A DNA stretch of 64,000 nt, taken from positions 966,393-1,030,392 of the forward strand of contig BPHV01000001.1 of assembly GCA_026003755.1 (NCBI GenBank), in the 5' to 3' direction. The position numbers and the translations under genes were made by a program. Shown here in pieces: positions 34,029 through 48,496 of the stretch (position 1 is the stretch's first letter; each line of letters starts with the position of its first letter). The DNA is from Candidatus Roseilinea sp. GTDB taxonomy: Bacteria; Chloroflexota; Anaerolineae; J036; Brachytrichaceae. The notes beneath the pieces are model-generated. The model searched no databases, was not told where the DNA came from, and worked only from the letters and a program-made list of their open reading frames with translations.

Positions 34029-34053
34029 GCTGCTTTGCTCCATGCGGCCGTGA

Positions 34054-35238
34054 TCATTCACAACCGCCTATCACGCCCGCGCGTTTCAATTGCGCGATCT
34101 CGGCATCGGTATATCCCAGCGCACGCAGCACCTCGGCGCTGTGTTCGCCGACCCTGGGCGGTTGCCGGCGCAGCTCCAGCCGGCCACTGCTGAAAGCCAG
34201 CGGCAGCGCCGGCAGGTTGCAGCTCACCGCTTCGCCGACCTGCACGCGCCACAATGCGCCGGCCGCCAGCAGATGCGGGTCTTCGAGCAAATCTTCGGGG
34301 CGTGCGACCGGCGCGAACGGGATCTCCGCGCGCTCACAGCCAGCCAGCACCTCGGATGTGCTCATCTGCTTGAACATGGCGGTCAGATCGGCGGTCAAGC
34401 GCTCGAAGGCGTGATAACGCTGGTTGTTGGTAGCCAGCGATTCGTCGGCCAGCAGGTCGGGGCGGTTGAAGACTTCGCAGAAGCGCTGCCAGTGCTTGTC
34501 GCTGGTGACGCCGACGAAGACGAGGTCGCCATCGCGCGTCTCGAAGGGTTGGTAGATGGCCCACGAGCGGGGCTTGCCCGGCATGGGCGGGATGGGCTCG
34601 CCGAGGAGGGGCTGATACACCATGTGCTGACCGACAAGATAAGCCGCCGACTCGAACAGGCCGCCGCGCACGAGTTGCCCGCGTCCGGTGCGGTCGCGCT
34701 CGCGCAATGCGGCCAACACCCCTAACGCGCTGAACGCGCCGGCCAGGACATCCACCACCGAGACGCCCGCCCGCAGGGGTTGGCCCACCGGCCCGGTCAT
34801 GTAGGCGATGCCGCTCTGCATCTGCACCACCTCGTCCAACGCCACGCGCTTCTCGTAGGGGCCGGGCAAATAGCCCTTGAGCGCGCAGTAAATCAGGCGC
34901 GGGTTAAGCTGCGATAGCGTCTCGTAGCCCAGCCCCAGGCGGTCCATCGTCCCCGGGGCGTAGTTCTCCAGCAACACGTCGGCCTGCTCGGCCAATTTCA
35001 GCACAATCGCCCGGCCGGCGTCGCTCTTCAGGTTCAACGCCAGGCTCTTCTTGTTGCGATTGAACATGGGGAAGTAACCCACCCCAAAGCCTTTGAGCGC
35101 GCGCGTCGGATCGCCCTCGACCGGCTCGATTTTGAGCACGTCCATGCCGAGGTCCGCCAGGATCAGGCCGCAGGACGGGCCGAGGATGGCATGGCTGAAT
35201 TCGATGACCTTGAGATTTGCGAAGGATAAGAGAGACAT
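34054..35238 (-). CDS. CaiB/BaiF class III CoA-transferase
   Basis: 394 residues from the ATG at 35238; an upstream GTG at 35262 would give a four-base overlap with leuD and eight extra residues. Signature elements: KVIEFSHAILGPSCGLILADLGMD, DVLKIEPVEGDPTR, FNRNKKSLALNLK and DVLLENYAPG. The position of formyl-CoA transferase's catalytic Asp appears to read GGLFESAAY, a Glu. Family members move CoA between carboxylic acids. Next to LeuCD-type hydratase and an HMG-CoA-lyase-family enzyme, the closest pathway analogy is the succinyl-CoA:D-citramalate CoA-transferase of Chloroflexus, but other acids are possible. Confidence 0.85.
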   Translation of the reverse strand: MSLLSFANLKVIEFSHAILGPSCGLILADLGMDVLKIEPVEGDPTRALKGFGVGYFPMFNRNKKSLALNLKSDAGRAIVLKLAEQADVLLENYAPGTMDRLGLGYETLSQLNPRLIYCALKGYLPGPYEKRVALDEVVQMQSGIAYMTGPVGQPLRAGVSVVDVLAGAFSALGVLAALRERDRTGRGQLVRGGLFESAAYLVGQHMVYQPLLGEPIPPMPGKPRSWAIYQPFETRDGDLVFVGVTSDKHWQRFCEVFNRPDLLADESLATNNQRYHAFERLTADLTAMFKQMSTSEVLAGCERAEIPFAPVARPEDLLEDPHLLAAGALWRVQVGEAVSCNLPALPLAFSSGRLELRRQPPRVGEHSAEVLRALGYTDAEIAQLKRAGVIGGCE

Positions 35239-35258
35239 AGTGCGTATTGAGTCTTCGG

Positions 35259-35771
35259 TCACACTTCACGGATCACGTAGTCCCCATGCTGCTTGAGGTA
35301 GTTGACCAGCCCGCCGGCGCGCAGGATGTCCACCATCACCGCCGGCATGGGCGCGGCGCGGAAGACGCGGCCGGTCGCGCAGTTGGTCACTTCGCCGCAT
35401 TCCAGCGCGATGCGCACCATGTGGCCATTGGCGATGTCATGCGCCTCGGCCAGCTCAATCAGCGGCAGGCCGATGTTGATGGCGTTGCGATAGAAGATGC
35501 GCGCAAACGAACGGGCGACGACGCAGGCGACGCCGGCGGCCTTGATCGCCGCCGGCGCCTGCTCGCGCGAGGAACCGCAGCCGAAATTGTTGCCGAAAAC
35601 CAGCACATCGCCAGGGCGCACGCGGCCGGCGAACGTCGGGTCGAGGTCTTCCAAGACGTGTCCGGCCAGTTCGCGCACGTCCAGCGTCTTGGTGTATTTG
35701 CCGGGGATGATCCGGTCGGTGTCTACGTCGTCCACGTCATAGACGTGGGCCAAGCCGAGTATCACATTCAT
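35259..35771 (-). CDS. leuD: 3-isopropylmalate dehydratase/homoaconitase-family small subunit
   Basis: 170 residues, full length for the archaeal/Chloroflexi-type small subunit. DVDTDRIIPGKYTKT, FGNNFGCGSSREQAP and SFARIFYRNAINIGLPL form the swivel domain of the aconitase superfamily. With the large subunit encoded immediately upstream (four-base overlap) it forms a [4Fe-4S] hydro-lyase. No leuA or leuB is nearby and the neighbours are catabolic, so hydration of a methyl-branched unsaturated diacid such as citraconate, or a related acid, is at least as likely as leucine synthesis. Confidence 0.9.
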   Translation of the reverse strand: MNVILGLAHVYDVDDVDTDRIIPGKYTKTLDVRELAGHVLEDLDPTFAGRVRPGDVLVFGNNFGCGSSREQAPAAIKAAGVACVVARSFARIFYRNAINIGLPLIELAEAHDIANGHMVRIALECGEVTNCATGRVFRAAPMPAVMVDILRAGGLVNYLKQHGDYVIREV

Positions 35772-37082
35772 AGGGTCGGCATTGCGTCAGTCGGCGCCGG
35801 AGCCGTCGGCGTCTCTGACATCAGCGGGAGACCGTTTGAGGCGTCGGGAACGACATCGGCGGGTTCGCAGATTTCGCCGGCCAGCACGCTGGCGGCCACT
35901 ACAGCCGGCGAGGCGAGATAAATCTGCGCGCGCGGGTTGCCCATGCGCCCCTGAAAGTTGCGGTTGGTCGAGGAGATGACCACCTCGCCGTTGCCCGGCA
36001 CGCCCTCGTGGGTGCCGACGCACGGGCCGCAGCCGGCGCCGATGAACGTCGCGCCGGCCTCGCTCAGCGCAGCGATTGTGCCATCGCGCAGCGCCGCATT
36101 GAAGACCGCGCGCGACGCCGGCGCAATTAGCAAACGCACGCCCGGCGCCAGCTTGCGGCCGCCCAGCACAGCCGCGGCCTGTTGGAGATCGTCCAGGCGC
36201 GCGTTGGTGCAACTGCCGATGAAGCCGGCGTTGATCTTGACGCCCTTAACCCGCGCAATCGGCACGACGTTGTCGGGCGAGTGCGGCAGCGCCACGTGCG
36301 GCGTCAGGCGCGACACATCGAAGCGCAGCGCGCGCGCGTAGGCCGCGCCGGGGTCGGCGTTGACCGGCGCGAAGTCGTACGGCAAGCGCAAGCCCGCCGG
36401 CACGGACGATGCCGGCCTTGGCGCCCATCTCGCTGGTCATGTTCGCCAGCGTCATGCGCTGGCTCAAGCGCAGCGGCTCAATCGCCTCGCCGGTGAACTC
36501 GACGCAGTGGTAGTTCGCGCCCTCCAGGCCGACGCGCCCGACCAGGAAGAGCGCCAGGTCTTTGGCGGTCACGCCGAGCGGCCATGCGCCGACCAGCTCG
36601 ATGCGGATGCTGTGAGGCACCCGGAGCCAGGTCTTGCCGGTGAGCAAGATGCCCGCCAGATCGGTGGAGCCGACGCCGGCGCCGAATGCATTGAGCGCGC
36701 CGCAGGTCGGCGTGTGCGAGTCTGCGCCGAGGAACAGGTCGCCAGGTCGCACATGGCCGCGCTCGACCATGAGCTGATGGCAAATGCCCTCGCCGACATC
36801 GTAGCAATGGCAACCTTGGTCGCGCGCGAATTGACGCATCATCGCGTGCAGATTGGCGATGCGCTCATTGGGCGCGGGCGCAGCATGGTCGAGGACGAAC
36901 GCCACACGACGCGCGTCCCACACGCGCCGCCCGCCCATCTCATGGAAAGCCTGAATGGCCAGCGGGGCGGTCGCATCGGTCGCCATCGCGCCGTCCACAT
37001 GCACAATGGCGATCTCGCCGGCGCGCACGCGCTTCCGCGCCGCGCGCGAAAGGATCTTCTCGGCAATCGTTTGTTGGGTCAT
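35768..37082 (-). pseudogene. leuC: 3-isopropylmalate dehydratase-family large subunit, interrupted by one frameshift
   Basis: The protein reads as a normal large subunit in two phases. Residues 1 to about 226 (MTQQTIAEKILSRA, LFLGADSHTPTCGALNAFG, ANMTSEMGAKAGIV) run to about 36405. The remainder (PYDFAPVNADPGAAY, INAGFIGSCTNARLDD, GCGPCVGTHEG, SSTNRNFQGRMGNP) is in the next phase. Removing one C in the GTCC at 36404-36405 (coding strand) joins them seamlessly as AGIVVPAGLRLPYDF. All cluster-binding cysteines are retained. A genuine recent mutation or a sequencing/assembly error are both possible; given the intact small subunit and operon I favour the latter. The ATG at 37082 is the family start. 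Confidence 0.85.
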
Positions 37083-37154
37083 GGATCTGGGTCTCATAAC
37101 ATGCGTCCGCTTAGCGAGCGAGACGCGCGCGATGCACGAATCAACACGGCCGAC

Positions 37155-38078
37155 TTACACCGATGAACAACTGAACAACATGCGGCGCGTGCCGGCAGCC
37201 GGGACATGGCTGGGCAGCGGCCGGCCAAGGAACTCCTGCATACGACGCGAGGCCTCGCGGACGATCTCAACATCCACGCCGGTCTCGATGCCCATCTCGT
37301 CGCACAGGTTCACCAAGTCCTCGGTGCTGATGTTGCCAGTGGCCACCTGAGTCGTCGGGCACCCCCCTAATCCGCCGAGCGACGACTCAAAGGTGGTCAC
37401 ACCGATGTCCATCGCCGCCAGCACGTTGGCCAACCCCAGGCCGCGCGTATCGTGCAGATGTAATGCAAAGGCGCAATCCGGCAGACGCGCGCGCAGCTCG
37501 CCCAGCAGTCGGCGGACGGTGCGCGGATTGGCCAAGCCCACCGTGTCGGCAATACAAATGTCGCGCAGGCCCAAGGTTGCATACGCCTCGGCCAGGGCGA
37601 TGACGCGCGCTTCTGGCACTTCGCCCTCAAAGGGGCAGCCGAACGCCACGGAGACGGCCGGCTCGACGTGGATGCCGATCGGCGCGCACATCGCAACCAC
37701 TTCGCGCAGCGCAGCCAGGGATTGGGCCACGCTCATGTTCATGTTCTTTTGGTTGTAGGTCTCGCTGGCACAAACCACGAAGCGCACCGCATCCACACCG
37801 GCAGCGACCGCGCGCTGCGCGCCCTTCACGTTTAGGATCAGCGCGCAGTAGCGCACGCCGGGGCGCCGCCGGATGCGCTGCATCACGGCGTCGCTGTCGG
37901 CCATCTGCGGAATGACTTTGGGATTGACGAAGGACGTGGCTTCGATAGCCGGCAAACCGGATGACGAGAGCAAATCAATGATCTCAACTTTGAGGTCGGT
38001 CGGGATGAACTCCCGCTCCATCTGAAACCCGTCGCGGGGGCCGACTTCCACTACGGTGACGCGCGTTGGGACGTTCAT
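37155..38078 (-). CDS. HMG-CoA lyase-family enzyme (possible (R)-citramalyl-CoA lyase)
   Basis: 307 residues, DRE-TIM metallolyase. VEVGPRDGFQMERE opens the barrel with the catalytic Arg and metal Asp. HLHDTRG gives the metal His pair. ESSLGGLGGCPTTQVATGNISTED contains the signature Cys loop (GGCP). HMG-CoA lyases cleave HMG-CoA to acetoacetate and acetyl-CoA; relatives in Chloroflexus cleave (R)-citramalyl-CoA to pyruvate and acetyl-CoA. Adjacency to LeuCD-type hydratase and a class III CoA-transferase favours the citramalyl-CoA reaction, while phytol/leucine-type degradation would favour HMG-CoA. It follows the second ALDH by four bases. Confidence 0.83.
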   Translation of the reverse strand: MNVPTRVTVVEVGPRDGFQMEREFIPTDLKVEIIDLLSSSGLPAIEATSFVNPKVIPQMADSDAVMQRIRRRPGVRYCALILNVKGAQRAVAAGVDAVRFVVCASETYNQKNMNMSVAQSLAALREVVAMCAPIGIHVEPAVSVAFGCPFEGEVPEARVIALAEAYATLGLRDICIADTVGLANPRTVRRLLGELRARLPDCAFALHLHDTRGLGLANVLAAMDIGVTTFESSLGGLGGCPTTQVATGNISTEDLVNLCDEMGIETGVDVEIVREASRRMQEFLGRPLPSHVPAAGTRRMLFSCSSV

Positions 38079-38082
38079 GGGA

Positions 38083-39528
38083 TTAAAACGGTCGGGGCGT
38101 CTCGCCCAGCTCGATGCTCATCCATTTCAGCTCGGTGAAATGCTCGACGGAGTATTTGCCGCCGCTGCGCCCAATGCCGCTCATGCCGTAGCCGCCAATC
38201 GGCGCGAGCGCATCGCTCCAAAACGAGTGCGTGCCGACGTGAACCGAACCGGCGCGAATGCGCCGCGCTGCCGTGAGGCCGCGCTGCAGGTCGTTCGTGA
38301 GCACGCCGGCGCTCAAGCCGTATGCGCTGTCGTTGGCGAGGGCGATCGCCTCGTCCAGATCGGCAGCGCCGACGACGCTCACCACCGGCCCAAACGTCTC
38401 CTCGCACCAGGCCGGGCCAAGGCGGGGCGGCTCGAAGAGCACAGTCGGACGGTAGGTGTTGCCGTGATGGATGCTCCCGCCACACAGCAGCGTCGCGCCG
38501 CGCGCCAGGGCGTCTTGCACGTGCGCATGCACCTTTTGAACAGCGCGCGCATGGATCAGCGGGCCGTAGGCCGTGCGCGCGTCGCGCAGGTCGCCCAAGT
38601 GCAACTTTTCGGCCTTGCGCGCCAATGCCTCGGCGAACGACCGGGCGATGGGTTGCTCGACGATCACGCGCGCGCTGCTCATACAAATCTGGCCGGCGTG
38701 ATAGAACGCGCCCACGGCGGCGACCTCAGCAGCCTGCGTCACATCCACATCGCGCAGCACCACCAGGGGATTTTTGCCGCCCAGTTCGAGCTGCAGGCGC
38801 TTCATATGCGGCGCCGCCAGCGCGGCGATGCGCGCGCCGACGGCGGTGGAGCCGGTGAAGGCAACGCCGCGCACGGCGGGGTGTTTCACCAACGGCGCGC
38901 CGCATTCTTCGCCATAGCCGGTGATCACGTTGAAGACACCCGCCGGCAGGCCGGCCTCGTGCAACACGCGCGCCAGCTCGATCGCCACCAGCGGCGTCTC
39001 CTCGCTGGGCTTGGCGACGACCGTGTTGCCGGCGGCCAGCGGGAAGGCGATCATCTTCACCAGCAGCGCCAACGGCGCGTTGAACGGGGAGATGACGGCC
39101 ACGACGCCCAGCGGTTCGCGCACCACCAACGACAGACGATGCGGGCGATCGTTGGGGAAGGTGTCGCCGTAGAGGCGGCGCGCTTCGCCGGCGGCGGCGC
39201 GCAGCAAAGCCACGCTGTATTGCACTTCGTAACGCGCCTTGGTGATCGTCGAGCCGCCCTCATCAATCACCAGGTCGAGCCAGCGCGGCGCAGCCATCTC
39301 GACGGCATCGGCGCAGCGCAGCAGGATGCGCTCGCGCTCGCCGGGAGGCAACCCGGCCCAAGCTGCGAACGCCGCGCGCGCGGCCTCAACCGCCGCGTTC
39401 ACATCGTCCAAGCCGGCGCGGGCGGCATAGCCCAGCACGTCGCCGCTCTCCGGCGCGACGCTGGGGAATGCCTCGCCCGTCCTTGCGGCGACTTCGCAGC
39501 CGCCGATGAACAGCCCGTAGCGACTCAT
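38083..39528 (-). CDS. NAD(P)-dependent aldehyde dehydrogenase (second copy in the run)
   Basis: 481 residues with complete ALDH signatures: ISPFNAPLALLVKM, AKPSEETPL, AFTGSTAVGARIA, the general base Glu in LELGGKNPLVV, the catalytic Cys in HAGQICMSSARV, and EETFGPVVSV. The HAGQICMS loop is typical of aromatic/benzaldehyde- and vanillin-type dehydrogenases. It is not closely similar to the ALDH at 29119-30558, so the two likely act on different aldehydes. It lies six bases after the beta-barrel gene and four before the lyase, in the middle of the operon. Confidence 0.88.
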   Translation of the reverse strand: MSRYGLFIGGCEVAARTGEAFPSVAPESGDVLGYAARAGLDDVNAAVEAARAAFAAWAGLPPGERERILLRCADAVEMAAPRWLDLVIDEGGSTITKARYEVQYSVALLRAAAGEARRLYGDTFPNDRPHRLSLVVREPLGVVAVISPFNAPLALLVKMIAFPLAAGNTVVAKPSEETPLVAIELARVLHEAGLPAGVFNVITGYGEECGAPLVKHPAVRGVAFTGSTAVGARIAALAAPHMKRLQLELGGKNPLVVLRDVDVTQAAEVAAVGAFYHAGQICMSSARVIVEQPIARSFAEALARKAEKLHLGDLRDARTAYGPLIHARAVQKVHAHVQDALARGATLLCGGSIHHGNTYRPTVLFEPPRLGPAWCEETFGPVVSVVGAADLDEAIALANDSAYGLSAGVLTNDLQRGLTAARRIRAGSVHVGTHSFWSDALAPIGGYGMSGIGRSGGKYSVEHFTELKWMSIELGETPRPF

Positions 39529-39534
39529 GGGGGA

Positions 39535-40488
39535 CTACTGCTCCGTCCAATGCAAGACGCCAAACATGACGTAGGCCAGCCGATTGCTCTGATGCACCAT
39601 CCACACGTTAGCCAACGTGTAACGCTCATCCACCAGAAACTCGCGCCCCTCAATCCGCAGCGGCGCGCCGGCGAAATGCTGCGAGATGAAAAGCGCGCGC
39701 CCATAAGCCAGCCCGCTGCCGAACACGTCGGGGCCGTGAAAGGTGTGCCGGTTGACCTCGCGGGCGCGATGGAAGGTATAACGCCGGCTCAGGCCGGTCT
39801 CGACCGGCGCCTCGACCTCGACCGTCTGCGCGGCCGTCAGCAGGCTGGTGGGCGCGTATGCGATGCGCACGTGGGCCTCGCCGGCGCGCGTCTGATCGGC
39901 GCGATAGACGTGCATGTTCCCCTCAAACGTGCCGCTGCGCTTGGCGGGCAGCACATGCGGTTGCGGGCCGTTGATGCGCTCGCGCTCGCAAAATGCGTCT
40001 ATCTCGGCGCGCGTGGCCGGGTTGGTGTGGTAATCATGCGCCACCCGATACAGCCCGTTGAAGACGTATTTGAGCGTCGGCCCTTCGTAGAGCAACGAGG
40101 AATACACTTGTGTCTGCCCATCGTCCAGCACCCAGTTCAGCGTATTCAGGTCGCAGCACCAAAATGGGGAGTAGTAGCGCGAGTTGACCAAGCCGCCATA
40201 CGGCTGGCCGCTGCCGTAGAAATCCGGCCCCAGGTAAACGCGATCCCGGTCGCCGTCGCTCACGCCGAACTTGAAGCCGTCGGGCGTCGCCAGGCGATGG
40301 AAGTCCACCGACGGCAAATCGTGGAAGCGCGTGTGCATGATGTAAGTCGTCGCGCCGGTCGCCGGATCGAAGATGCTTTGGCGATCCACCTTGTTGTAAC
40401 CCAGATGATTGCCTTCGCGGTCGAACGTGCTCGGATAACCGTGCCACTCACCGCTGATGCGCTTTTGGAACTCGCTGGGCTGAGACAT
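39535..40488 (-). CDS. two-lobed beta-barrel-like protein (operon paralogue 1)
   Basis: 317 residues, no named family. It has no signal peptide, and alternating hydrophobic patterning suggests beta-rich structure. The N-terminus ISGEWHGYPSTFDREGNHLG resembles the opening strand of calycin/lipocalin-like proteins. Two internal copies of a motif Y/H-x-G-P-D-x-x-G-S-G (YLGPDFYGSGQPYGG, about 85-100; FHGPDVFGSGLAYGR, about 248-262) show an internal duplication. The same GPDxxG motif occurs in the proteins at 44446-45294 and 45298-46179. The ATG at 40488 lies 17 bases after the bilin-reductase-like gene. Such barrels often bind hydrophobic cofactors, so a tetrapyrrole-binding role is a hypothesis. 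Confidence 0.65.
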   Translation of the reverse strand: MSQPSEFQKRISGEWHGYPSTFDREGNHLGYNKVDRQSIFDPATGATTYIMHTRFHDLPSVDFHRLATPDGFKFGVSDGDRDRVYLGPDFYGSGQPYGGLVNSRYYSPFWCCDLNTLNWVLDDGQTQVYSSLLYEGPTLKYVFNGLYRVAHDYHTNPATRAEIDAFCERERINGPQPHVLPAKRSGTFEGNMHVYRADQTRAGEAHVRIAYAPTSLLTAAQTVEVEAPVETGLSRRYTFHRAREVNRHTFHGPDVFGSGLAYGRALFISQHFAGAPLRIEGREFLVDERYTLANVWMVHQSNRLAYVMFGVLHWTEQ

Positions 40489-40505
40489 GGGCAGCAATGG
40501 CGTCG

Positions 40506-41255
40506 TCAGGATTCGACTTGTGGGTTGCGCAGCACTTCGATGAGCCGCAGGTTCATCGCTCTGCCGAGCAACCGTTCGATCTGGCTCCATACCGGATCCA
40601 CTTCGTAGCTGAAGATGGCGTGACGATTTGCGCGGTCACGTTCGGCCAACTGCGCCGGCGTCATGGCGATCGGCGCGCGAATGCCGTTTTCGACCAAGCG
40701 AAACCAGTGGCGCAGGTACGCCTCGATGTGCGGCGCGCATTGGGCGTAGGCTTCCTCCGTCGCGCGGTAGGCCAACATCCACGGCGACATCAGGGCATAC
40801 TGCCGCGGCGAGAGGCTGGCCGGCATCAACCCTGCGATTTGCTTCGCCTGATCGAAGCTCGCCGTCAGCGGCATGAAGACTTCATTCATATAAGCCAGAT
40901 TCGCCCCCAAGTCCACGCGGGGGACCAGGTCCAGATGAAAGGCGAAGCTCGGCCCGGCCAGCACGCTATCCAGCGTGAAATGCGGCACGGCGCTTTCCGG
41001 CGGCGTGAAGGCGAAGAACATGTGCGAGTCCAGCCCGATAGGCGGCACGGTGATGCCGATGTAGACCACCTTGCGCACGCGCTCCGAACCAGCGGCGGCG
41101 ATTTCCGGCGGCGAGGCAAACAGTCGGCACGCGCCGACCGGCTGCGGCGCCATCGGGCTGGTCAGCGCGATGAACGGATCGCCGATCTCGCGCAGGGCGA
41201 ACCGCCGGACGATCTTGTCCAGCGTCTCATGGCTTAGTCGTTGGGCGAGTGACAT
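40506..41255 (-). CDS. red chlorophyll catabolite reductase/bilin reductase-like protein
   Basis: 249 residues from the ATG at 41255. The central stretch PHFTLDSVLAG...FAFHLDLVPRVDLGANLAYM parallels plant RCC reductase (PNFVVEL...LILDLPHRKDLVLNPDYL, from memory) in order, spacing and residue type. The later SPRQYALMSP, the paired helices and FSYEVDPVW match the C-terminal half. Asp96 and Asp220 fall where the plant enzyme has its two acidic active-site residues (reported as Glu154 and Asp291 in Arabidopsis, from memory). Family members are ferredoxin-dependent and reduce open-chain tetrapyrroles without metal or flavin. Neighbouring a chlorophyllase-like hydrolase and Rieske oxygenase proteins, it suggests tetrapyrrole breakdown. 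A different ligand cannot be excluded without a profile search. Confidence 0.55.
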   Translation of the reverse strand: MSLAQRLSHETLDKIVRRFALREIGDPFIALTSPMAPQPVGACRLFASPPEIAAAGSERVRKVVYIGITVPPIGLDSHMFFAFTPPESAVPHFTLDSVLAGPSFAFHLDLVPRVDLGANLAYMNEVFMPLTASFDQAKQIAGLMPASLSPRQYALMSPWMLAYRATEEAYAQCAPHIEAYLRHWFRLVENGIRAPIAMTPAQLAERDRANRHAIFSYEVDPVWSQIERLLGRAMNLRLIEVLRNPQVES

Positions 41256-41278: not shown

Positions 41279-42340
41279 TTAGGCGTCGCGCGGCTGGATG
41301 GTGGGCGCTTCCTTCATCACCCACGCCGCGGCCAGTTCGGGCACCTCGCGCCGCGCCGGCGAGGGAATGACGACTGCTTTGATGTTGGCGTATTCCGCCT
41401 GAATGAGGTGCGCGTCTATGCCCCAGCCGCGGGCGATGGCTTCATCGCGCAGTCGGCGGAAGGTACAAAAGAGGAGCGTTTCCGGCGCAGGCTGACCTTC
41501 CACCTCAGGGCGCAGCCGCTCCAGTGCCGCCATCACGCGCCGGCGCGCGACTTCAGCGTTGGTCTGACTTGACCGCCGCGCCACCATCCAACGGGTGGTG
41601 GTCGTCTCAGGGTTCACCGGAACATGCGCCATCATCATGTGATCGTCGCCGGCGCGGCAGAGCGTGATGCAGGGCATGTGAAAGGCCACCGAGACCTCGC
41701 AGGATAAGGCGGGCACGCGCCGCCGCGTTAAGCCAAGCCAGCCGCGCACAAGGTAAGGCGGCGGCGTCAACATGGCCGTCAGGCGCGCCCCCCAGGGCGT
41801 TTCAGCGGCGTGCAGCGCGCTGAACTGTGGCGCTTCAGGCGCAAATTCGCCATCCAGCGCCAGCATAGCGATAGGCAGTTGGACCAGATGAGCGATCACG
41901 CGCTCGTAGGGCGCACGCCAAGTGATCGCCCCGCTCAAAATCATCGCCGCGCCGGCGTCTTGGAGCGTTGGCATCGGCGGACGCTCGGCGGCGGGGATGT
42001 CGCCGAGGAAAGCCCACACCCATCCCATCTGCTCGACCGTCGGATAGGCGTCCACGCGCGCCTTGCGCGGCACCGGCGCATCGGGCGGATTGGCGGGGAT
42101 GCGCACACAAGCACCATCGGCGCGAAACTCCCATCCATGATAAGGACACACGATGCGATCCCCTTGCGTCCAACCGTCGCTCAACGCGCCGCCGCGATGC
42201 ACACACAGGTCGCTCAGCACATTCGCGCGTCCATCCGGCAATCGGTATGCGACGAACTCCTCTTGCAGGGCCGTGACGCGAATCGGCTTGCGACTCACTT
42301 CGGAGCTGAAGGCCAGCGGCCACCAAAAGTTCTTGAGCAT
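41279..42340 (-). CDS. Rieske-oxygenase-family protein A: iron-sulfur domain intact, catalytic-iron site lost
   Basis: 353 residues. Opening MLKNFWWPLAF and fold match the PaO/CAO/VanA-type Rieske monooxygenases. The Rieske ligands are perfect: Cys46-x-His48 in DLCVHRGG and Cys65-x-x-His68 in VCPYHGWEF. In the catalytic domain the segment after ITWRAPYERVI should carry the D-x-x-H-x4-H triad. It reads AHLVQLPIAMLAL, with Gln154, Ile157 and Leu162 where protein B has Asp, His and His. The protein should therefore carry a [2Fe-2S] cluster but not catalyse oxygen activation alone. The ATG at 42340 has AGGTGA upstream. It probably serves as electron-transfer subunit for protein B encoded two genes upstream. 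Confidence 0.82.
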   Translation of the reverse strand: MLKNFWWPLAFSSEVSRKPIRVTALQEEFVAYRLPDGRANVLSDLCVHRGGALSDGWTQGDRIVCPYHGWEFRADGACVRIPANPPDAPVPRKARVDAYPTVEQMGWVWAFLGDIPAAERPPMPTLQDAGAAMILSGAITWRAPYERVIAHLVQLPIAMLALDGEFAPEAPQFSALHAAETPWGARLTAMLTPPPYLVRGWLGLTRRRVPALSCEVSVAFHMPCITLCRAGDDHMMMAHVPVNPETTTTRWMVARRSSQTNAEVARRRVMAALERLRPEVEGQPAPETLLFCTFRRLRDEAIARGWGIDAHLIQAEYANIKAVVIPSPARREVPELAAAWVMKEAPTIQPRDA

Positions 42341-42355
42341 TTCATCTCACCTCGC

Positions 42356-43324
42356 TTATTTCGTGCGCCATTCCAAGGACGCATCGTTGGATAACGCGCG
42401 CAGACGCGCAGACGCGGCAGCATCGCCGCAGGCCGCCGACAGGATGAACGCGCCGATCACCTCGGCCATGCGCGCGCGCATGGCCGACTCATCGCCCTCC
42501 GGCGACCAGTCGAGGAAGCTGCGTCCGGCCGTCTCGTCGAGCGGGTGTGCCAGGGTGAAATGATTGGCGCCGCGCCAGATCACCAGATGGCGATCGCCGC
42601 GCGCGCCGGCGACGCCCTCGTCAAACGTGCGGCGCACAGGCGCAACCGGATCACCCGCCTGGCCGTAACGCGCCCCGCTGGCGGCTATCACGCCATCGCG
42701 CCCGCCGCACATCAGCAACAACGGCAGGTCGGACGCGCAGGCCAGCACCGTCCCCGGCGCAAAGCCCAGCATCGTCGCCGCCATGGTGTGGCCGGCGTAG
42801 CTGAAGCCGGCGACCACGTGGGGGAAGTAGCGCGGGTTAGCGTTGTGCAGCGCGAGCGTGCCGCCGGCTGAATGGCCGCCCAGCACCACGCGATCCAGCG
42901 CCAACCCACCCTGCAACGGCCCGGAGCGATCCAGTCGTTCCAACTCGTCCAGCATCGGCGCGATGGCCGGCGCCGTCGGCGCGCTGCCGTAGGTTTGCGG
43001 CGTCACCCGCGCCAGGTCTAGCCCGTTGGTCAGGCCGATCACGCCGGGCAGGGTCTCGCCCACCCAGTTGAACAACACGACGACGATGCCCTGCCGCGCC
43101 AGCGCGATCGCCAACCAGGCATACGACTCGGCTCCCACGTTAATGCCGTTGAAGAAGATCAACACCGGCATCCGCCCACGCGTTAGGTCGGCCGGGATGA
43201 CGCCGGTCATGCGCTCCGCTGCGCTGCCGGTCGGCGCAGCCGGATAGAACACCTTGAGGTGCAAGGTGTCGAACGGCGCCGGCGCGCCTTCAGCTTTGAC
43301 GGCTGTGTAGAGCGAGCGGATCAT
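42356..43324 (-). CDS. alpha/beta hydrolase resembling chlorophyllase
   Basis: 322 residues from the ATG at 43324. The fold opens with PVLIFFNGINVGAESYAWLA, as in chlorophyllase/PAF-acetylhydrolase-type hydrolases (oxyanion region, then a strand ending VVLFNW). The nucleophile elbow is LGGHSAGG (Ser152). CGGRDG gives Asp210 and ANHF gives His255 as the rest of the triad. No signal peptide. Chlorophyllases cleave the phytyl ester of chlorophylls; other ester or lactone hydrolases share these motifs, so the name rests on context. It lies between the two complementary Rieske proteins, 15 bases upstream of A. Confidence 0.65.
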   Translation of the reverse strand: MIRSLYTAVKAEGAPAPFDTLHLKVFYPAAPTGSAAERMTGVIPADLTRGRMPVLIFFNGINVGAESYAWLAIALARQGIVVVLFNWVGETLPGVIGLTNGLDLARVTPQTYGSAPTAPAIAPMLDELERLDRSGPLQGGLALDRVVLGGHSAGGTLALHNANPRYFPHVVAGFSYAGHTMAATMLGFAPGTVLACASDLPLLLMCGGRDGVIAASGARYGQAGDPVAPVRRTFDEGVAGARGDRHLVIWRGANHFTLAHPLDETAGRSFLDWSPEGDESAMRARMAEVIGAFILSAACGDAAASARLRALSNDASLEWRTK

Positions 43325-43351
43325 CGGCGCGACATTCCTCAGATAAGTCAA

Positions 43352-43376
43352 TGGGCGAAGGCGGCGCCTTCGCCCA
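43352..43376. repeat. hairpin, copy 1 of a TGGGCGAAGG...CCTTCGCCCA family
   Basis: TGGGCGAAGGC pairs with GCCTTCGCCCA around a 3-base loop (11 bp). A second copy with the same stem words is at 63778-63806. This one lies inside the operon between protein B and the hydrolase (73-base gap), so it may modulate relative expression or RNA stability rather than end transcription. Confidence 0.6.
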
Positions 43377-43397
43377 CCCCCTGCCTTGGCCTCCCTC

Positions 43398-44444
43398 TCA
43401 AGCAGCCATGCCTTCCAAACGCGCAGCATCCTGGCGCAACGCCGGCCGATAGGGCGACGGGATTTCGATGTCGTCCTGCGCTTTGCCGCGCGGATACAGC
43501 CCCCAGCCTCGGTCGAAGAAGCGCTGCCGGGTCTTGCGGAACGCGATCTGAATCGCGTCGCTGCGCACGTGGAGTTCAGCGCCCAAGTCATAGGGTAGAA
43601 TCTCCGGGCGCTGCGCCTCGACCACTTTCTGGTCTTGCTTAAAAATCTTGATCACGCGCTGGTGCATGTTGCCATCGGCCCAACGGCCCTTGAAGAAGGT
43701 GCGCAGGCCGATATATTTGCTCACCGTCTTCATGTCATCCACCGGCACGTGGGCGTTGTAGATCATCAGCGTGCCCAGCGGCAGATGCACTTCCAGGATG
43801 GAGATATTCGGCATCCACCAGCCGACGACGGTCCTCACCACCGTATCGCGCTGCTTGCTGGTGTAGATGCGGCTCCACAGACCTTTGGCCGGCGTGGGCT
43901 TGAGATGGATCGTCGCCATGGCGCTGGTCTCGGTAGATTCGACTTGGTAATCCTCAATTTCTGGTTCGTCCGGGTTGCCGAACGCGCCGCCGTGCACAAA
44001 CGGCGTGTGGGCGGCATCCACGCCGTTCTCCAACGCGCGGGCGTAATGCACGTTCCACTCGAAGTTGCCATGCACGACCTTGTAAGTGGCGGTGTCCTCG
44101 ATGTAAGGCAAGTGGGGAATCGGGATGCGTTCAGACTCCGGCAGGTCGCCGAAGAAGACGAAGCACCAGCCGTAGCGGTCCTGCGTCGGATAGGCCAGCG
44201 CATACGTCTCGCCCGCCGAACCATCGGATGCGTAGCGCCGGCCGTTCTGGGCGACCAGGTCGTCGCCTTCGACGCGCACCGCGCCCAACGGCCGGCGCGT
44301 GGCCATATCCAAGTCGCGCATGATCACCGCTTGACCATTCGTTTGGCGATAGGCCCAAAACGCTTTGCCCATCACGCGCAACGGCTTCGGTTCGCGCGTG
44401 ATGGCTTCGCTGAATTCGATCGGCCACCAAAAGTTTTTCAGCAT
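43398..44444 (-). CDS. Rieske-oxygenase-family protein B: iron-sulfur ligands lost, catalytic-iron site intact
   Basis: 348 residues, clearly homologous to protein A from the first residues (MLKNFWWPIEF). At the gap-free aligned Rieske positions all four ligands are gone: Asp46, Ala48, Ala65 and Gly68 replace Cys, His, Cys and His. The mononuclear-iron motif is perfect: ENGVDAAHTPFVHGG with Asp143, His146 and His151. The C-terminal VVEAQRPEILPYDLGAEL is typical of VanA/PaO-type oxygenases. It should bind catalytic iron but needs electrons from another subunit. Protein A, with the opposite loss, is the obvious donor, since Rieske oxygenases pass electrons across subunit interfaces. The ATG at 44444 has GGAGGG upstream within the end of the preceding gene. 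Confidence 0.82.
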   Translation of the reverse strand: MLKNFWWPIEFSEAITREPKPLRVMGKAFWAYRQTNGQAVIMRDLDMATRRPLGAVRVEGDDLVAQNGRRYASDGSAGETYALAYPTQDRYGWCFVFFGDLPESERIPIPHLPYIEDTATYKVVHGNFEWNVHYARALENGVDAAHTPFVHGGAFGNPDEPEIEDYQVESTETSAMATIHLKPTPAKGLWSRIYTSKQRDTVVRTVVGWWMPNISILEVHLPLGTLMIYNAHVPVDDMKTVSKYIGLRTFFKGRWADGNMHQRVIKIFKQDQKVVEAQRPEILPYDLGAELHVRSDAIQIAFRKTRQRFFDRGWGLYPRGKAQDDIEIPSPYRPALRQDAARLEGMAA

Positions 44445-44445
44445 G

Positions 44446-45294
44446 TCACCCTCCCTCCACCACAGCGCTGAACCGGATCACCGCCACGCGCTGCAAGCGC
44501 TCCGCTTCGATCACGCGATGGATGCCGGTCAGCGTCTGCGTCGTCGCATCCACGACCTCGAGCATGGAGACCTGGGCGCCGCCGGCCAGCGCGCCTTCCA
44601 ACTCGAACGACGGCCCCACCCGCCGGGCCACGGCATCCAGGCCAAACCCAGCGACGCGCAGATCATCGCCGCAGGCCGTCCACTCCACCGGCCAATCGTC
44701 TTCGCGCCAACCGTTCGCGTGATAGCAGCGCGCGAGCGGTTCCTCGCCCAGGCAATCACCATCGGCATCAAAGCGCGTCCGCGCGCCGCGCCATTTGTGC
44801 GCCAACGATTCCGGACGGGCCGCGAGATCGAGCGAGGGATAACCCGCCGGCTCGTCTGTGGGCGTCAGCGCCTGCCCGACGCCGATGATGTGCGCGACGC
44901 ACGCGCCGGCGCGGAAGAATCGCCCACCGGTCAACTGCCGTCGCGGGGTCACCATCACGGACCACGAAACGAAGTTGTGGCCGAAGCGCGGCCAAACGCC
45001 GCGGCCGGTCATCACGTCGCTGCCCCAGCGCACCGCGGCGCCCACCACGTCCGGCCCCAGATAGCGACGCACCCGGCCTTCGAGTGCGAGATCAAAGACC
45101 CATTCGCCGGCGAAGGCCGCCATGGGATGCTGCGCCAACATGGCTTCTGGCTGACAGCGCTGCGTCACGCGGATGCGCGATTCATCGAGGCGCTCCAGCT
45201 CGCGCTGCTGATAATTCACGCCGACGAGCGCGCCGAGGTCGTCAAAGACGTACTCGGTCACCCGCCAGCGGCCAAGAAAAGCGTCGCCTGCCAT
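44446..45294 (-). CDS. beta-barrel-like protein (operon paralogue 2)
   Basis: 282 residues, no named family. The start FLGRWRVTEYVFDDLGALVG parallels paralogue 1 (SGEWHGYPSTFDREGNHLG). The segment RRYLGPDVVGAAVRWGSDVMTG aligns with the YLGPDFYGSGQPYGG motif of paralogue 1, and the following strands also align by pattern. The second half is beta-rich without the motif. No signal peptide or membrane helix. It is one base upstream of Rieske protein B and three downstream of paralogue 3. A ligand-binding or scaffold role in the same pathway is inferred only from position. Confidence 0.65.
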   Translation of the reverse strand: MAGDAFLGRWRVTEYVFDDLGALVGVNYQQRELERLDESRIRVTQRCQPEAMLAQHPMAAFAGEWVFDLALEGRVRRYLGPDVVGAAVRWGSDVMTGRGVWPRFGHNFVSWSVMVTPRRQLTGGRFFRAGACVAHIIGVGQALTPTDEPAGYPSLDLAARPESLAHKWRGARTRFDADGDCLGEEPLARCYHANGWREDDWPVEWTACGDDLRVAGFGLDAVARRVGPSFELEGALAGGAQVSMLEVVDATTQTLTGIHRVIEAERLQRVAVIRFSAVVEGG

Positions 45295-45297
45295 CGC

Positions 45298-46179
45298 TCA
45301 TCCTTCAGCGCTGAACGCGAGCACGCCGAACTCGCTGCCGATGCGCTCCTCGCCGCGATACCAATGCCGCAGCAACACCTTGCGCGTCCCGTCGAGCGTG
45401 ACGACTTCGCGACGCCAGACGCGCAACTGAACCGGCAGATGATGGAAATAGCCATGAGAAGCGCGTCCGCCGGCCAGGCCGCAACTGCCGGCGACCTCAC
45501 CATCAGGCATCGTCCAGGCCTGCCAGCCGTTGGTTTTCAAGCAGAACTCACGACGCGCCGGGTCAAAATACCCGCCCTCCATCGCGAAGCGGCCGTCGGC
45601 GGAGAACGATTCACAATAGGTCGCCCGTCCGATGAGGCGACGCTGCGCATCCAACGTCACCAGCTCTCCCTGCCAGGTGCCTTGGCGATGCAGGAGCATC
45701 ACCGAGCGGCCGGCCGTGGGGTCATCGGCCAGGTCAAGCGACGTGCCGCACACCAGCTCCGGCAATCCTGGCTCGCCGACCACGCGCCGGTTCTGGCCGA
45801 CCACGACATAGACCAATTGGTCGCCGCGCGACATCAGGGCAAGGGATGCCTGGGTATCGCCATCGGGCAACACGGCCAGCAGGAAGCGCTGGCTCAGACC
45901 CAGCGCCGGCCAGTAGGCATGCGCATCCACCACGCCCTCGCCCAGCGTCTCGGCATAGCCGACGTTGACCGGCCCCTCGTAAATGCGATGGTCGCCGCAG
46001 TCGCGGATGAAGTAGTGGCCGCTGACTTTGAACGGGCCGATGAACGCGACATCAATGCGCGTGCGACAATCGTCCACCCGCTGGACGCAGCGCATGTCCA
46101 TGCCGTTCCCAACGAAGTGGCCGTCGCCGGCGAACACCTCAGCGTTGCCGATCCACTGGCCGAAGAGTGAAAGCGTCAT
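45298..46179 (-). CDS. beta-barrel-like protein (operon paralogue 3)
   Basis: 293 residues, no named family. It begins FGQWIGNAEVFAGDGHFVGNG, again the G-x-W-x-G...F...D/G opening. IYEGPVNVGYAETLGEGVVDA matches the GPDxxG motif region of paralogues 1 and 2 with Asp replaced by Val. The second half repeats a barrel-like pattern (GRATYCESFSADGRFAMEGGYFDP). No targeting signal. It is spaced three bases from paralogue 2 and 49 bases (a repeat-bearing spacer) from the DUF3891 gene. Confidence 0.65.
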   Translation of the reverse strand: MTLSLFGQWIGNAEVFAGDGHFVGNGMDMRCVQRVDDCRTRIDVAFIGPFKVSGHYFIRDCGDHRIYEGPVNVGYAETLGEGVVDAHAYWPALGLSQRFLLAVLPDGDTQASLALMSRGDQLVYVVVGQNRRVVGEPGLPELVCGTSLDLADDPTAGRSVMLLHRQGTWQGELVTLDAQRRLIGRATYCESFSADGRFAMEGGYFDPARREFCLKTNGWQAWTMPDGEVAGSCGLAGGRASHGYFHHLPVQLRVWRREVVTLDGTRKVLLRHWYRGEERIGSEFGVLAFSAEG

Positions 46180-46228: not shown

Positions 46229-47041
46229 TCACTGCGCGATCAATTTCACCGTTTCGCGCTCACATGGCGTCTCGCGCATCACAGCGCCCCAATCGGTCTC
46301 TTCGGCGCGCGGGCTGAGATAGCGCCCCTCGCACCAGAAGGTCATGCCGCTCTCGGCGAACGGAAAAGGCGAGAGCGCGTAGGCGTCGCCGACGGGCGTG
46401 ATCGTGATGGCGATGTCTTCATCCGGTCCGGCCGGCACATGCGTCAGCGTCACCGACGACCGCTGGGTGGTATGGGTCGTGTTGAAGTAGAGGGCGAGCA
46501 TGTCGAAGAACTGCAGCAGCTTGTAGCAACGGAACAGGAAGGCGTCGCTCGCCCACTCGGCCGTCTCGGGATTGCTGCGCAGTTGCGCCTTCAGCGACGC
46601 TTGGCGCTCCAGCTCGCCCTGCAACATGCGCCGCGCGTCCGCTTGGTATTCCGGCGGTATCCGGTTGATGACGATCGTGTCGCTCAGGCCGTATCGGCCG
46701 TGATATAGGCCGTAGGTGTGCATCGAGGAGAGCAGCCCACAGAAGGGATGGTGACGCTGGTTGAAGTCGGGCGAGCCGGCGCCGGTGCGCAGCAGGTCGG
46801 GCATGGGCGTTTGCGTCAGGTGATAAGGCAGACCTGTGCGCGGGTCGTGCTTCGGCGCAGCATCCACCGCAGCCCACCCCTCGTCGTGATGCGCCGTCAC
46901 ATATGTCATCAGTTCGTGCGGCTGCGGCGCAGCAAACTGCCGATTGCCAAATGCGCGCGCAAATTGCCCGCTGAATCGCGCGTGATCTACCTGGGTGATC
47001 ACGAAGTGCGGCGCACCGGGGGGAGCAGATTGGACGATCAT
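46229..47041 (-). CDS. DUF3891 family protein
   Basis: 270 residues matching the DUF3891 layout: MIVQSAP...FVITQVDHARFSGQFA at the start, then TAHHDEGWAAVDAAPKHDPRTGLPYH, then CGLLSSMHTYGLYHGRYG. The conserved His and Asp residues (HHDEGW; SSMHTYG) resemble an HD-domain-like metal site, but the function of the family is not known to me. It is 23 bases downstream of the small barrel gene and upstream of paralogue 3, in the same run. A hydrolase role in the pathway is possible but speculative. Confidence 0.78.
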   Translation of the reverse strand: MIVQSAPPGAPHFVITQVDHARFSGQFARAFGNRQFAAPQPHELMTYVTAHHDEGWAAVDAAPKHDPRTGLPYHLTQTPMPDLLRTGAGSPDFNQRHHPFCGLLSSMHTYGLYHGRYGLSDTIVINRIPPEYQADARRMLQGELERQASLKAQLRSNPETAEWASDAFLFRCYKLLQFFDMLALYFNTTHTTQRSSVTLTHVPAGPDEDIAITITPVGDAYALSPFPFAESGMTFWCEGRYLSPRAEETDWGAVMRETPCERETVKLIAQ

Positions 47042-47064: not shown

Positions 47065-47544
47065 CTAGCCGACTCGGACGAAGTCCTGTATCTGAAAGAT
47101 GGTTGTCTTGCCGTCGCGCATTTTGTGCGTGATGATCCGACGCGTGTTGGGGTCGAGGAAGTAATGGTTGTTAAAGACGATGGACTGGGTGACGGCGCTG
47201 TCAATGATGAAGTTGTAGTTGTAGGGCGTAAGTTCGGTGCCGACGACTTTGATCAGCGCGTTCTCCGCATAGCAGTTCTTGCCCACGACGCGGAAGTCGC
47301 TGTCATACACCTGCCGGCCGACGCCATAGAGGTTCTCAAAGTCCTCGTGCAGATGCCATGTGTCCTCGGCTGTCCAGTACACGTCCATGTGTACGGCCGT
47401 GGACTCGATGAATACGCCGTCTGGGCCGAAGGTCTTGCATAAGCCTTCCCAACGCCCCATGAAGCACTGATAGGGCTTGAGTTGCGGCGTGCCGTAGTCT
47501 CGCATGGTCGCGTTTACAAGCTGCGCATGGGTGATCCGATTCAT
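47065..47544 (-). CDS. small beta-barrel/lipocalin-like protein
   Basis: 159 residues from the ATG at 47544, which overlaps the GntR gene stop by four bases. CFMGRWEGLCKTFGPDGVFIES is a calycin-like first strand, with the same G-x-W-x-G...F...DG pattern as the larger paralogues. WHLHEDFENLYGVGRQVYD and later beta strands complete one barrel. It has the size of a single lipocalin domain and may be a distant single-lobe relative of the two-lobed proteins. It is the first gene after the regulator, which suggests a high expression level. Ligand unknown. Confidence 0.65.
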   Translation of the reverse strand: MNRITHAQLVNATMRDYGTPQLKPYQCFMGRWEGLCKTFGPDGVFIESTAVHMDVYWTAEDTWHLHEDFENLYGVGRQVYDSDFRVVGKNCYAENALIKVVGTELTPYNYNFIIDSAVTQSIVFNNHYFLDPNTRRIITHKMRDGKTTIFQIQDFVRVG

Positions 47545-48266
47545 GAGCAATGGATTTGGTATTTCATGCGGTCACCGCGATAGCGCGCCCTCAAAAATTC
47601 GATCGGCGTGCCGTCGCGCGCCACGATCAGCCGCTCGATGGACAGCATCGGCGTGCCGCGCTTGACGCGCAGCAGCTTGGCCTCTGGCTCGCCCGCCGCG
47701 ACGGCTTCGATGGAGCGCTCAATGCAGTGATCGCCCATCTGCGGCAGACGCTTGAGGTAGTCGGTCGAGCCGCCCTTGTCCAGCGCGCTGCGGTCAATCG
47801 CCTCGGCCAGCACCTCGGGCACATACGAGACCAGGTAGCCGATCGGCTCTTCGCTGGCCAAGCGTAAGCGCTGCAAGCAGTACACGCGCGCGTTGCGCGG
47901 CAGATGAAGCCGGGCGGCAATTTCGGCCGGCGCGACGATGTGACGTTCGTCAAGCACCTTCCAGCCGGGCATCAGCCCCTGCTCCAGCAAATACTGCCCA
48001 ATCCCGCGATGACGCAGCGGGTCGTGTTGGAACTTGGGCTGGGCGACGAAGGTGCCCCGCCCACGCTGGCGGGTCAGCCGGCCCTCCATCACCATCTCGG
48101 CCAGCGCCTGGCGCACGGTCGTCCGGCTGAGTTTGTAGCTCTGCTGTAGCTCTTGCTCGGTCGGCACGCTGTCGCCGGGCTTCCATTCGCCCTTCTCGAT
48201 CTTCTCCAGCATCTGCTGCTTGAGCTGGTAATAGAGCGGAACGGGGGAATTGCGATCAATCACCAT
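47541..48266 (-). CDS. GntR-family regulator with UTRA domain (HutC subfamily)
   Basis: 241 residues from the ATG at 48266. The N-terminal winged helix is standard GntR (VPLYYQLKQQMLEKIEKGEW, VPTEQELQQSYKLSRTTVRQAL, RQRGRGTFVAQP). The C-terminal UTRA effector domain has LQRLRLASEEPIGYLVSYVP and SIERLIVARDGTPIEF. Such proteins usually repress a catabolic operon until a pathway metabolite binds. It is the promoter-proximal gene of the 19-gene run and a palindrome covers its start, so autoregulation of the whole operon is likely. An alternative ATG at 48287 would put the palindrome in the coding region. Confidence 0.85.
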   Translation of the reverse strand: MVIDRNSPVPLYYQLKQQMLEKIEKGEWKPGDSVPTEQELQQSYKLSRTTVRQALAEMVMEGRLTRQRGRGTFVAQPKFQHDPLRHRGIGQYLLEQGLMPGWKVLDERHIVAPAEIAARLHLPRNARVYCLQRLRLASEEPIGYLVSYVPEVLAEAIDRSALDKGGSTDYLKRLPQMGDHCIERSIEAVAAGEPEAKLLRVKRGTPMLSIERLIVARDGTPIEFLRARYRGDRMKYQIHCS

Positions 48267-48275
48267 GTCGCTTTG

Positions 48276-48300
48276 TTGTAATGTCATGACAATACTACAA
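48276..48300. promoter_or_regulatory. candidate GntR operator at the head of the 19-gene run
   Basis: The core TGTCATGACA (48282-48291) is a perfect 10-bp palindrome, flanked by TTGTA (48276-48280) and TACAA (48296-48300) as outer inverted arms. It lies ten bases before the chosen GntR start, where binding would block transcription. Confidence 0.55.
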
Positions 48301-48496
48301 TAGGTGGCTTGCCCTGTCAAGCACCCGGGCATGGCGCTGCGGCGTCTGTCACATCAGCGATTAGCGAGTTGCTCAGGTAGCGCTCGCCAGGCACCGCGAT
48401 GCTGCGATTGCGTTGGTCATGCGCAGGCTGACGCGCGCCGCCCAATGCCGGGGACGTAGGCGCGCCAGAGGGGCGTCGGCGGGGGCCATGTAACAG

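Follow-up and report, generated by a model that had tools for sequence, protein, structure and literature searches.

A probable two-chain Rieske oxygenase in Candidatus Roseilinea with [2Fe-2S] cluster and catalytic iron on separate paralogous subunits

The genome of Candidatus Roseilinea sp. (GenBank assembly GCA_026003755.1) contains two genes for Rieske oxygenase (RO) homologues, termed A and B here, each encoding a protein that has kept the ligands for one of the two RO metal sites and lost those for the other. Both genes reside in a stretch of 64,000 nucleotides (contig BPHV01000001.1, positions 966,393 to 1,030,392), the window analyzed in this study. We consider it likely, with a probability of roughly 0.8 that is based on sequence comparison, that A and B are complementary subunits of one VanA-type RO and that they originated from a single-chain ancestor, F, by duplication and reciprocal loss of cofactor sites. 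In ROs, the crossing of electrons from one subunit to the next has largely been deduced from distances in homo-oligomers. If cluster and iron are confined to separate chains, all productive transfer has to be intermolecular, and the pair can be regarded as evolution's own separation-of-function experiment. Single-chain orthologs in the same operon provide the natural control, and the proteins form a before-and-after series that leads from F with both sites to A/B with dead motifs and on to B proteins with a deleted Rieske core.

Complementary metal sites in A and B

Both open reading frames are present where the initial annotation had located them and are transcribed from the minus strand, which it did not state. 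Its residue assignments were recovered: A carries C46, H48, C65 and H68 together with Q154, I157 and L162, and B carries D46, A48, A65 and G68 together with D143, H146 and H151. At the position of the last Rieske His, B has G68 in the gap-free comparison and N67 once the proteins are aligned. The proposal that an Asp/His/His set binds the catalytic iron holds for the two His residues and fails for Asp143. We take this residue, the Asp of the D-x2-H-x4-H motif, to be the inter-subunit bridging Asp of the family, which does not itself bind the iron. A carboxylate further along the chain, D271, serves as the third ligand; it aligns with D287 of F, and the iron triad of B consists of H146, H151 and D271. 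In A, the aligned position 276 is occupied by Leu in the window protein and by Met in most other species. Bridging Asp and iron triad, four residues in all, are completely absent from the A protein of the window and completely present in its B protein.

Pfam detects only the Rieske domain in A (E 9e-20) and only VanA_C in B (E 4e-26), while the single-chain F homologues match both. A conventional single-chain RO has a Rieske motif in each chain, which is found in A and F and not in B, and in addition a 2-His-1-carboxylate site with bridging Asp in each chain, which is found in B and F and not in A. The arrangement expected for a two-chain RO, i.e., a Rieske motif in one chain and a mononuclear-iron motif in the other, is exactly what A and B present. 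The two proteins are only about 28% identical. They had been described as adjacent paralogues; paralogues they are, but their genes are not direct neighbors, since a conserved alpha/beta-hydrolase gene (42356-43324) separates them.

A single-chain homologue occupies the same operon position

A scan of genome contigs revealed the single-chain homologue F, which contains every ligand and which we regard as the decisive argument for the split. Nineteen F proteins, all with intact ligand sets, were found in Anaerolineae and three Actinomycetota; they share about 44-51% (Anaerolineae) or 37-41% (Actinomycetota) identity with A and B. Among 396 genomes of the class, F is present in 11 and A and/or B in seven, and none combines F with A/B. 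Most F genomes feature the same operon (unnamed genes are designated by their start in the window): GntR, 47065-like, DUF3891, 45298-like, 44446-like, hydrolase, F and a gene related to red chlorophyll catabolite reductase (RCCR), followed by 39535-like, HMG-CoA-lyase-like (HMGL), LeuC, LeuD, CoA-transferase, amidohydrolase and acyl-CoA dehydrogenase. In Roseilinea, a B-hydrolase-A segment replaces hydrolase-F within this conserved operon of about 15 genes. An exception is the Thermoflexales genome G006, where F is located outside the conserved operon. That the sole ligand-complete homologue stands in for both genes in the same operon supports the split, and our analysis upholds the reciprocal loss and the division of one enzyme postulated in the initial annotation. 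Locus L104, at first sight a case of A without B, is an F gene cut by the contig end; hydrolase and RCCR relative lie upstream and there is no B.

In the phylogenetic tree, A (support 100/99) and B (100/100) each form one clade inside the F family. Grouping A and B in one duplication clade, with F from G006 included or left out, was neither supported nor rejected by the approximately unbiased test (p 0.14 and 0.29), and the duplication can be dated against the F radiation no more closely than to a time at which the two genera that contain the pair had not yet separated. The ancestral F gene would have been duplicated, the copies would then have lost opposite cofactor sites, and F would have been retained elsewhere in the same slot.

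Conservation of the split pair

The pattern of ligand loss is common to five species of the genus (Ca. Roseilinea, Thermoflexales) and to a second genus. Five of the nine genomes of the first genus contain A as well as B, in identical gene order and with the alpha/beta-hydrolase gene in between, and the other four contain neither. In the sister genus g2, A and B occur in G004, and the G001 contig that carries B breaks off before A is reached. The B proteins of G004 and G001 lack the whole cluster-binding stretch and retain an intact iron site, indicating that the loss of the cluster from B is old and has advanced further in the sister genus. We compared ligands in six full-length A, seven B and 19 F proteins. 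The D/H/H/D residues are missing from all A proteins, save for one bridging Asp in G004, not a single Rieske ligand occurs in any B, and the set is complete in every F. The initial annotation had named homologues with restored ligands as one observation that would refute it; none in the A or B clade restores a working site. Chance, sequencing error and misassembly are ruled out by the recurrence of the pattern in five to seven genomes, one of which, G022, is a one-contig assembly of 4.7 Mb. A wider, phylum-wide genome sample yielded no further split RO.

Reciprocal constraint

The two halves of each protein have diverged from F to very different extents. Mean identity to F amounts to 71% in the Rieske half and about 26-27% in the catalytic half of the window A, as compared to 38% and 52%, respectively, in the window B. 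Of the residues invariant in F, A has kept 42/48 in the Rieske domain, 15/65 in the catalytic domain and 19/22 in the C-terminal tail; the corresponding numbers for B are 13/48, 54/65 and 3/22. Retention differs between Rieske and catalytic domains with Fisher values of 4e-12 and 2e-9. Within the genus, the ratio of non-synonymous to synonymous substitution rates (dN/dS) is 0.02-0.11 (Rieske) and 0.16-0.42 (catalytic) for A, and 0.05-0.23, mostly >0.14 (Rieske), and 0.04-0.13 (catalytic) for B. Counts of replacement and silent changes also differ between the halves (Fisher 2e-6 for A and 0.004 for B; two pairs that are nearly independent, sharing one short branch). As all ratios are below 1, neither A nor B is a relic.

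Gene A (41279-42340; homologues in L066 and L069) is mosaic among Roseilinea species. In G000, its Rieske half is closest to that of G023 (synonymous divergence, dS, 0.22) and its catalytic half to that of G017 (dS 0.08), a sequence pattern that suggests recombination near the domain boundary.

Electron transfer, assembly and alternative explanations

AlphaFold2 models of A and B (mean confidence, pLDDT, 85 and 72) both exhibit the overall RO fold, a Rieske domain followed by a catalytic domain, with the lower confidence to be kept in mind for B. Foldseek returned full-length matches of A to 7QWT, SxtT and dicamba monooxygenase (DMO) and of B to SxtT, GxtA and DMO. The N-terminal domain of B is confidently modeled as a Rieske-like beta fold from which the ligands are absent. 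In the related NdmA, cluster and iron are 44.7 Å apart within a chain and 12.1 Å apart between neighbors (PMC10380055), and CntA is a head-to-tail alpha3 trimer (PMC7948474). If this geometry is kept, the cluster of A would serve the iron of B. A general ferredoxin or reductase would reduce the [2Fe-2S] cluster of A, and electrons would then leave A across the interface that normally lies between identical subunits and reach the mononuclear iron of B via its bridging Asp143. Oxygen activation and substrate oxidation would take place at this iron, and A alone and B alone would both be inactive. The sequences themselves establish the reciprocal loss and its conservation, the existence of a single-chain counterpart, the synteny and the opposite constraint on the two halves; physical association, electron path and stoichiometry are inferred.

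Several points weigh against two subunits of one enzyme. A closed head-to-tail trimer, be it A2B or AB2, would have exactly one productive A-to-B contact, so that at most one of its three sites would work. A simple trimer appears unsuitable, since donors and acceptors cannot take turns around a ring with an odd number of members; this parity puzzle opens the actual assembly to direct experimental test. For both chains to be used efficiently, another assembly such as a hexamer or a trimer of heterodimers would be required; such an assembly has been suggested for the chlorophyllide a oxygenase (CAO) of Micromonas pusilla, MpCAO (PMC9615114). A Pfam search of the operon proteins turned up no reductase gene, and G001 yields B alone, its contig stopping at the expected position of A. 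Finally, the dead halves of A and B are still under purifying selection; presumably they are constrained as scaffold, and they may have further roles.

It is conceivable that A is a dissociable Rieske ferredoxin that docks transiently to B without a stable heteromer being formed, as its whole Rieske domain is kept and its catalytic half is the most drifted (26% identity to F). We regard this as improbable, because purifying selection maintains a full-length catalytic scaffold (dN/dS 0.16-0.42) and the C-terminal tail is highly conserved (19/22 F-invariant residues), which exceeds what a carrier requires. Even less credence can be given to B being served by another Rieske donor, with A in an unrelated, e.g., regulatory, role. 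There is a precedent in the cluster-less NdmC, which obtains its electrons from the Rieske domain of NdmD (PMC10380055). However, Pfam searches of the operon yielded no NdmD-like reductase, genomes gain or lose A and B jointly, and the similarity between F and the Rieske half of A is about the same as that among the F proteins themselves. Hardly any weight attaches to the idea that one or both proteins are decaying pseudoenzymes whose function has disappeared or been taken over by another Rieske protein. Further Rieske proteins are encoded in the genome, but the open frames are intact in five to seven species, dN/dS is well below 1 in every domain, and the losses are complementary with each retained half strongly conserved. 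Pseudogene decay is ruled out by dN/dS and the complementary pattern.

Comparison with known systems

The initial annotation had called such reciprocal loss undescribed, which does not hold for the principle, as a eukaryotic precedent exists in the two-chain CAO of Micromonas. Kunugi et al. reportedly found in 2013 that one MpCAO chain carries the Rieske motif and the other the mononuclear-iron motif and that both are required for activity. Like A/B, this enzyme is distributed over two polypeptide chains, MpCAO1 and MpCAO2 (PMC9615114). It differs in being a eukaryotic member of the CAO family that serves chlorophyll b biosynthesis, whereas A/B are bacterial and VanA-type and belong to an apparently catabolic operon whose counterpart in related genera holds a single-chain ortholog in the same slot. 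We infer that A/B originated independently of the MpCAO split and, as far as our literature searches reach, they represent the first bacterial case of one metal site per RO chain.

In the 7-methylxanthine demethylase NdmC/NdmD/NdmE, the alpha subunit NdmC is likewise cluster-less and the Rieske domain resides in another protein (PMC10380055). That protein, NdmD, is a reductase of the FNR type to which a Rieske domain has been added, and not a paralogue that has lost the iron site; A contains no reductase domain, and none was found in the operon. In the alpha3-alpha'3 heterohexamer NdmA/NdmB, alpha subunits of two paralogous kinds assemble with each other, but each of them retains both cofactor sites (PMC10380055). 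The closest named relatives according to NCBIfam, PDB sequences and Foldseek, i.e., SdmA (4beta-methylsterol monooxygenase), SxtT/GxtA, DMO and the guaiacol O-demethylase 7QWT, are single-chain enzymes with both sites, and sequence identity across the structural matches is only about 13-23%.

A possible role in tetrapyrrole catabolism

The surrounding genes suggest a link to bacterial tetrapyrrole catabolism, a process for which, to our knowledge, few genes are known. Seventeen of 20 members of the family encoded after A, and after F elsewhere, match RCC_reductase (PF06405) below threshold. The best PDB match of the family profile is phytochromobilin synthase (E 0.23), and comparison with the true PF06405 protein of the same genome gave 90.6% and E 1.3e-6 with hhalign and E about 1e-8 with direct BLAST. 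Relatives of this true PF06405 protein occur beside F at seven loci (L089, L091, L092, L093, L095, L101, L104) and beside A/B at L070/L085 (G004). RCCR and bilin reductases act downstream of an O2-dependent macrocycle-opening enzyme (PMC10151467), and the adjoining homologues suggest a tetrapyrrole substrate. We lean slightly toward a tetrapyrrole macrocycle that is ring-opened by F or A+B, the product being passed to the adjacent RCCR-like protein. Reduction would follow and then breakdown of pyrrole-derived fragments; the operon looks catabolic on account of its hydrolase, CoA-transferase, amidohydrolase, aconitase-type, HMGL and acyl-CoA dehydrogenase genes.

The linkage of an RO with an RCCR/bilin-reductase family protein, here within one operon, resembles the plant pheophorbide a oxygenase (PaO) pathway. 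PaO, however, is a single-chain protein, the RCCR similarity of the gene beside A is remote and the reaction proposed here is a prediction. Two findings count against the tetrapyrrole assignment: F and B match VanA_C and not the Pfam PaO domain, and none of the 11 genomes in the sample that encode the Staygreen (SGR) Mg-dechelatase belongs to the F or A/B genomes, which leaves chlorophyll breakdown via this dechelatase unsupported. Taken as a whole, the proposal of an obligate two-gene bacterial RO with metal sites divided between duplicated subunits, of non-trimer assembly and part of a hitherto undescribed bacterial route for the opening and breakdown of chlorophyll- or heme-type macrocycles with RCC-reductase homologues, is a tentative one with somewhat less than even odds.

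Table 1. Genes and sequence features of the operon in the window
Feature	Position	Strand	Evidence
Protein A, 353 amino acids (aa), Rieske-only subunit, predicted electron donor	41279..42340	-	Pfam Rieske only; C46/H48/C65/H68 intact; iron-site D/H/H/D lost
A residues 46-68, intact C-x-H-x16-C-x2-H [2Fe-2S] motif	42137..42205	-	Residue inspection and ligand alignment
A residues 154-162, degenerate D-x2-H-x4-H (Q154, I157, L162)	41855..41881	-	Residue inspection and ligand alignment
A Leu276, replacing third iron-ligand Asp	41513..41515	-	Alignment; F-invariant D287 is L/M in all A
Protein B, 348 aa, catalytic-iron-only subunit	43398..44444	-	Pfam VanA_C only; D143/H146/H151/D271 intact; Rieske ligands lost
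B residues 46-68, dead Rieske motif (D46, A48, A65, N67/G68)	44241..44309	-	Alignment; stretch deleted in G004 and G001
B residues 143-151, bridging Asp and two iron-ligand His intact	43992..44018	-	Alignment
B Asp271, third iron ligand	43632..43634	-	Alignment
Alpha/beta-hydrolase, 322 aa, between B and A	42356..43324	-	Ortholog directly upstream of F elsewhere
RCC-reductase/bilin-reductase-like, 249 aa, directly downstream of A	40506..41255	-	Sub-threshold PF06405 in family; hhalign
Conserved operon protein, no known family	39535..40590	-	Syntenic; no Pfam
Aldehyde dehydrogenase	38083..39528	-	PF00171
HMG-CoA-lyase-like	37155..38078	-	PF00682
LeuC/aconitase-type large subunit, two overlapping frames	35768..37097	-	PF00330 in part
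LeuD/aconitase-type small subunit	35259..35771	-	PF00694
Family III CoA-transferase	34054..35262	-	PF02515
Amidohydrolase	32556..34061	-	PF01979
Acyl-CoA dehydrogenase	30555..31838	-	PF02771/PF00441
Conserved operon protein upstream of B	44446..45294	-	Syntenic
Conserved operon protein	45298..46179	-	Syntenic
DUF3891 protein	46229..47041	-	PF13030; syntenic
Conserved operon protein	47065..47550	-	Syntenic
GntR/UTRA regulator, operon head	47541..48332	-	PF00392 and PF07702

Further genes and loci

A second cluster in the same genome (L136 8786-16019; G000:C1:406785-414018) encodes a true RCC_reductase (PF06405, 53 bits) along with an isochorismatase-type amidohydrolase, a maleate-isomerase-like protein of the Amdase family, a phosphoenolpyruvate-mutase/isocitrate-lyase-type lyase, an FAD monooxygenase and another Rieske dioxygenase. 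Several of these families adjoin the F operon in other Anaerolineae and in Actinomycetota, and the cluster may constitute the rest of the same pathway, processing maleimide-like fragments. Several genomes contain a short-chain dehydrogenase gene (Pfam adh_short) after F or in the F operon (L088 12892-13674, L102 5868-6674, L105 12993-13808), the product of which presumably resembles chlorophyll b reductase (NYC1/NOL). One Anaerolineae genome that lacks F carries a Staygreen gene (L139; G032:C133:24709-25155) about 1.4 kb away from another single-chain-type RO gene (G032:C133:26562), and the two possibly form a separate cluster for chlorophyll breakdown.

The conserved proteins encoded from 44446, 45298, 47065 and 39535 were assigned to no family. 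The only PDB match for the profile of the last is a lipocalin (E 1), and all four may be pigment-binding. The LeuC/aconitase-type gene is one open reading frame of 510 aa in the nearest relative (L066 11216-12745), and its split in the window is apparently due to a frameshift or a base-calling error.

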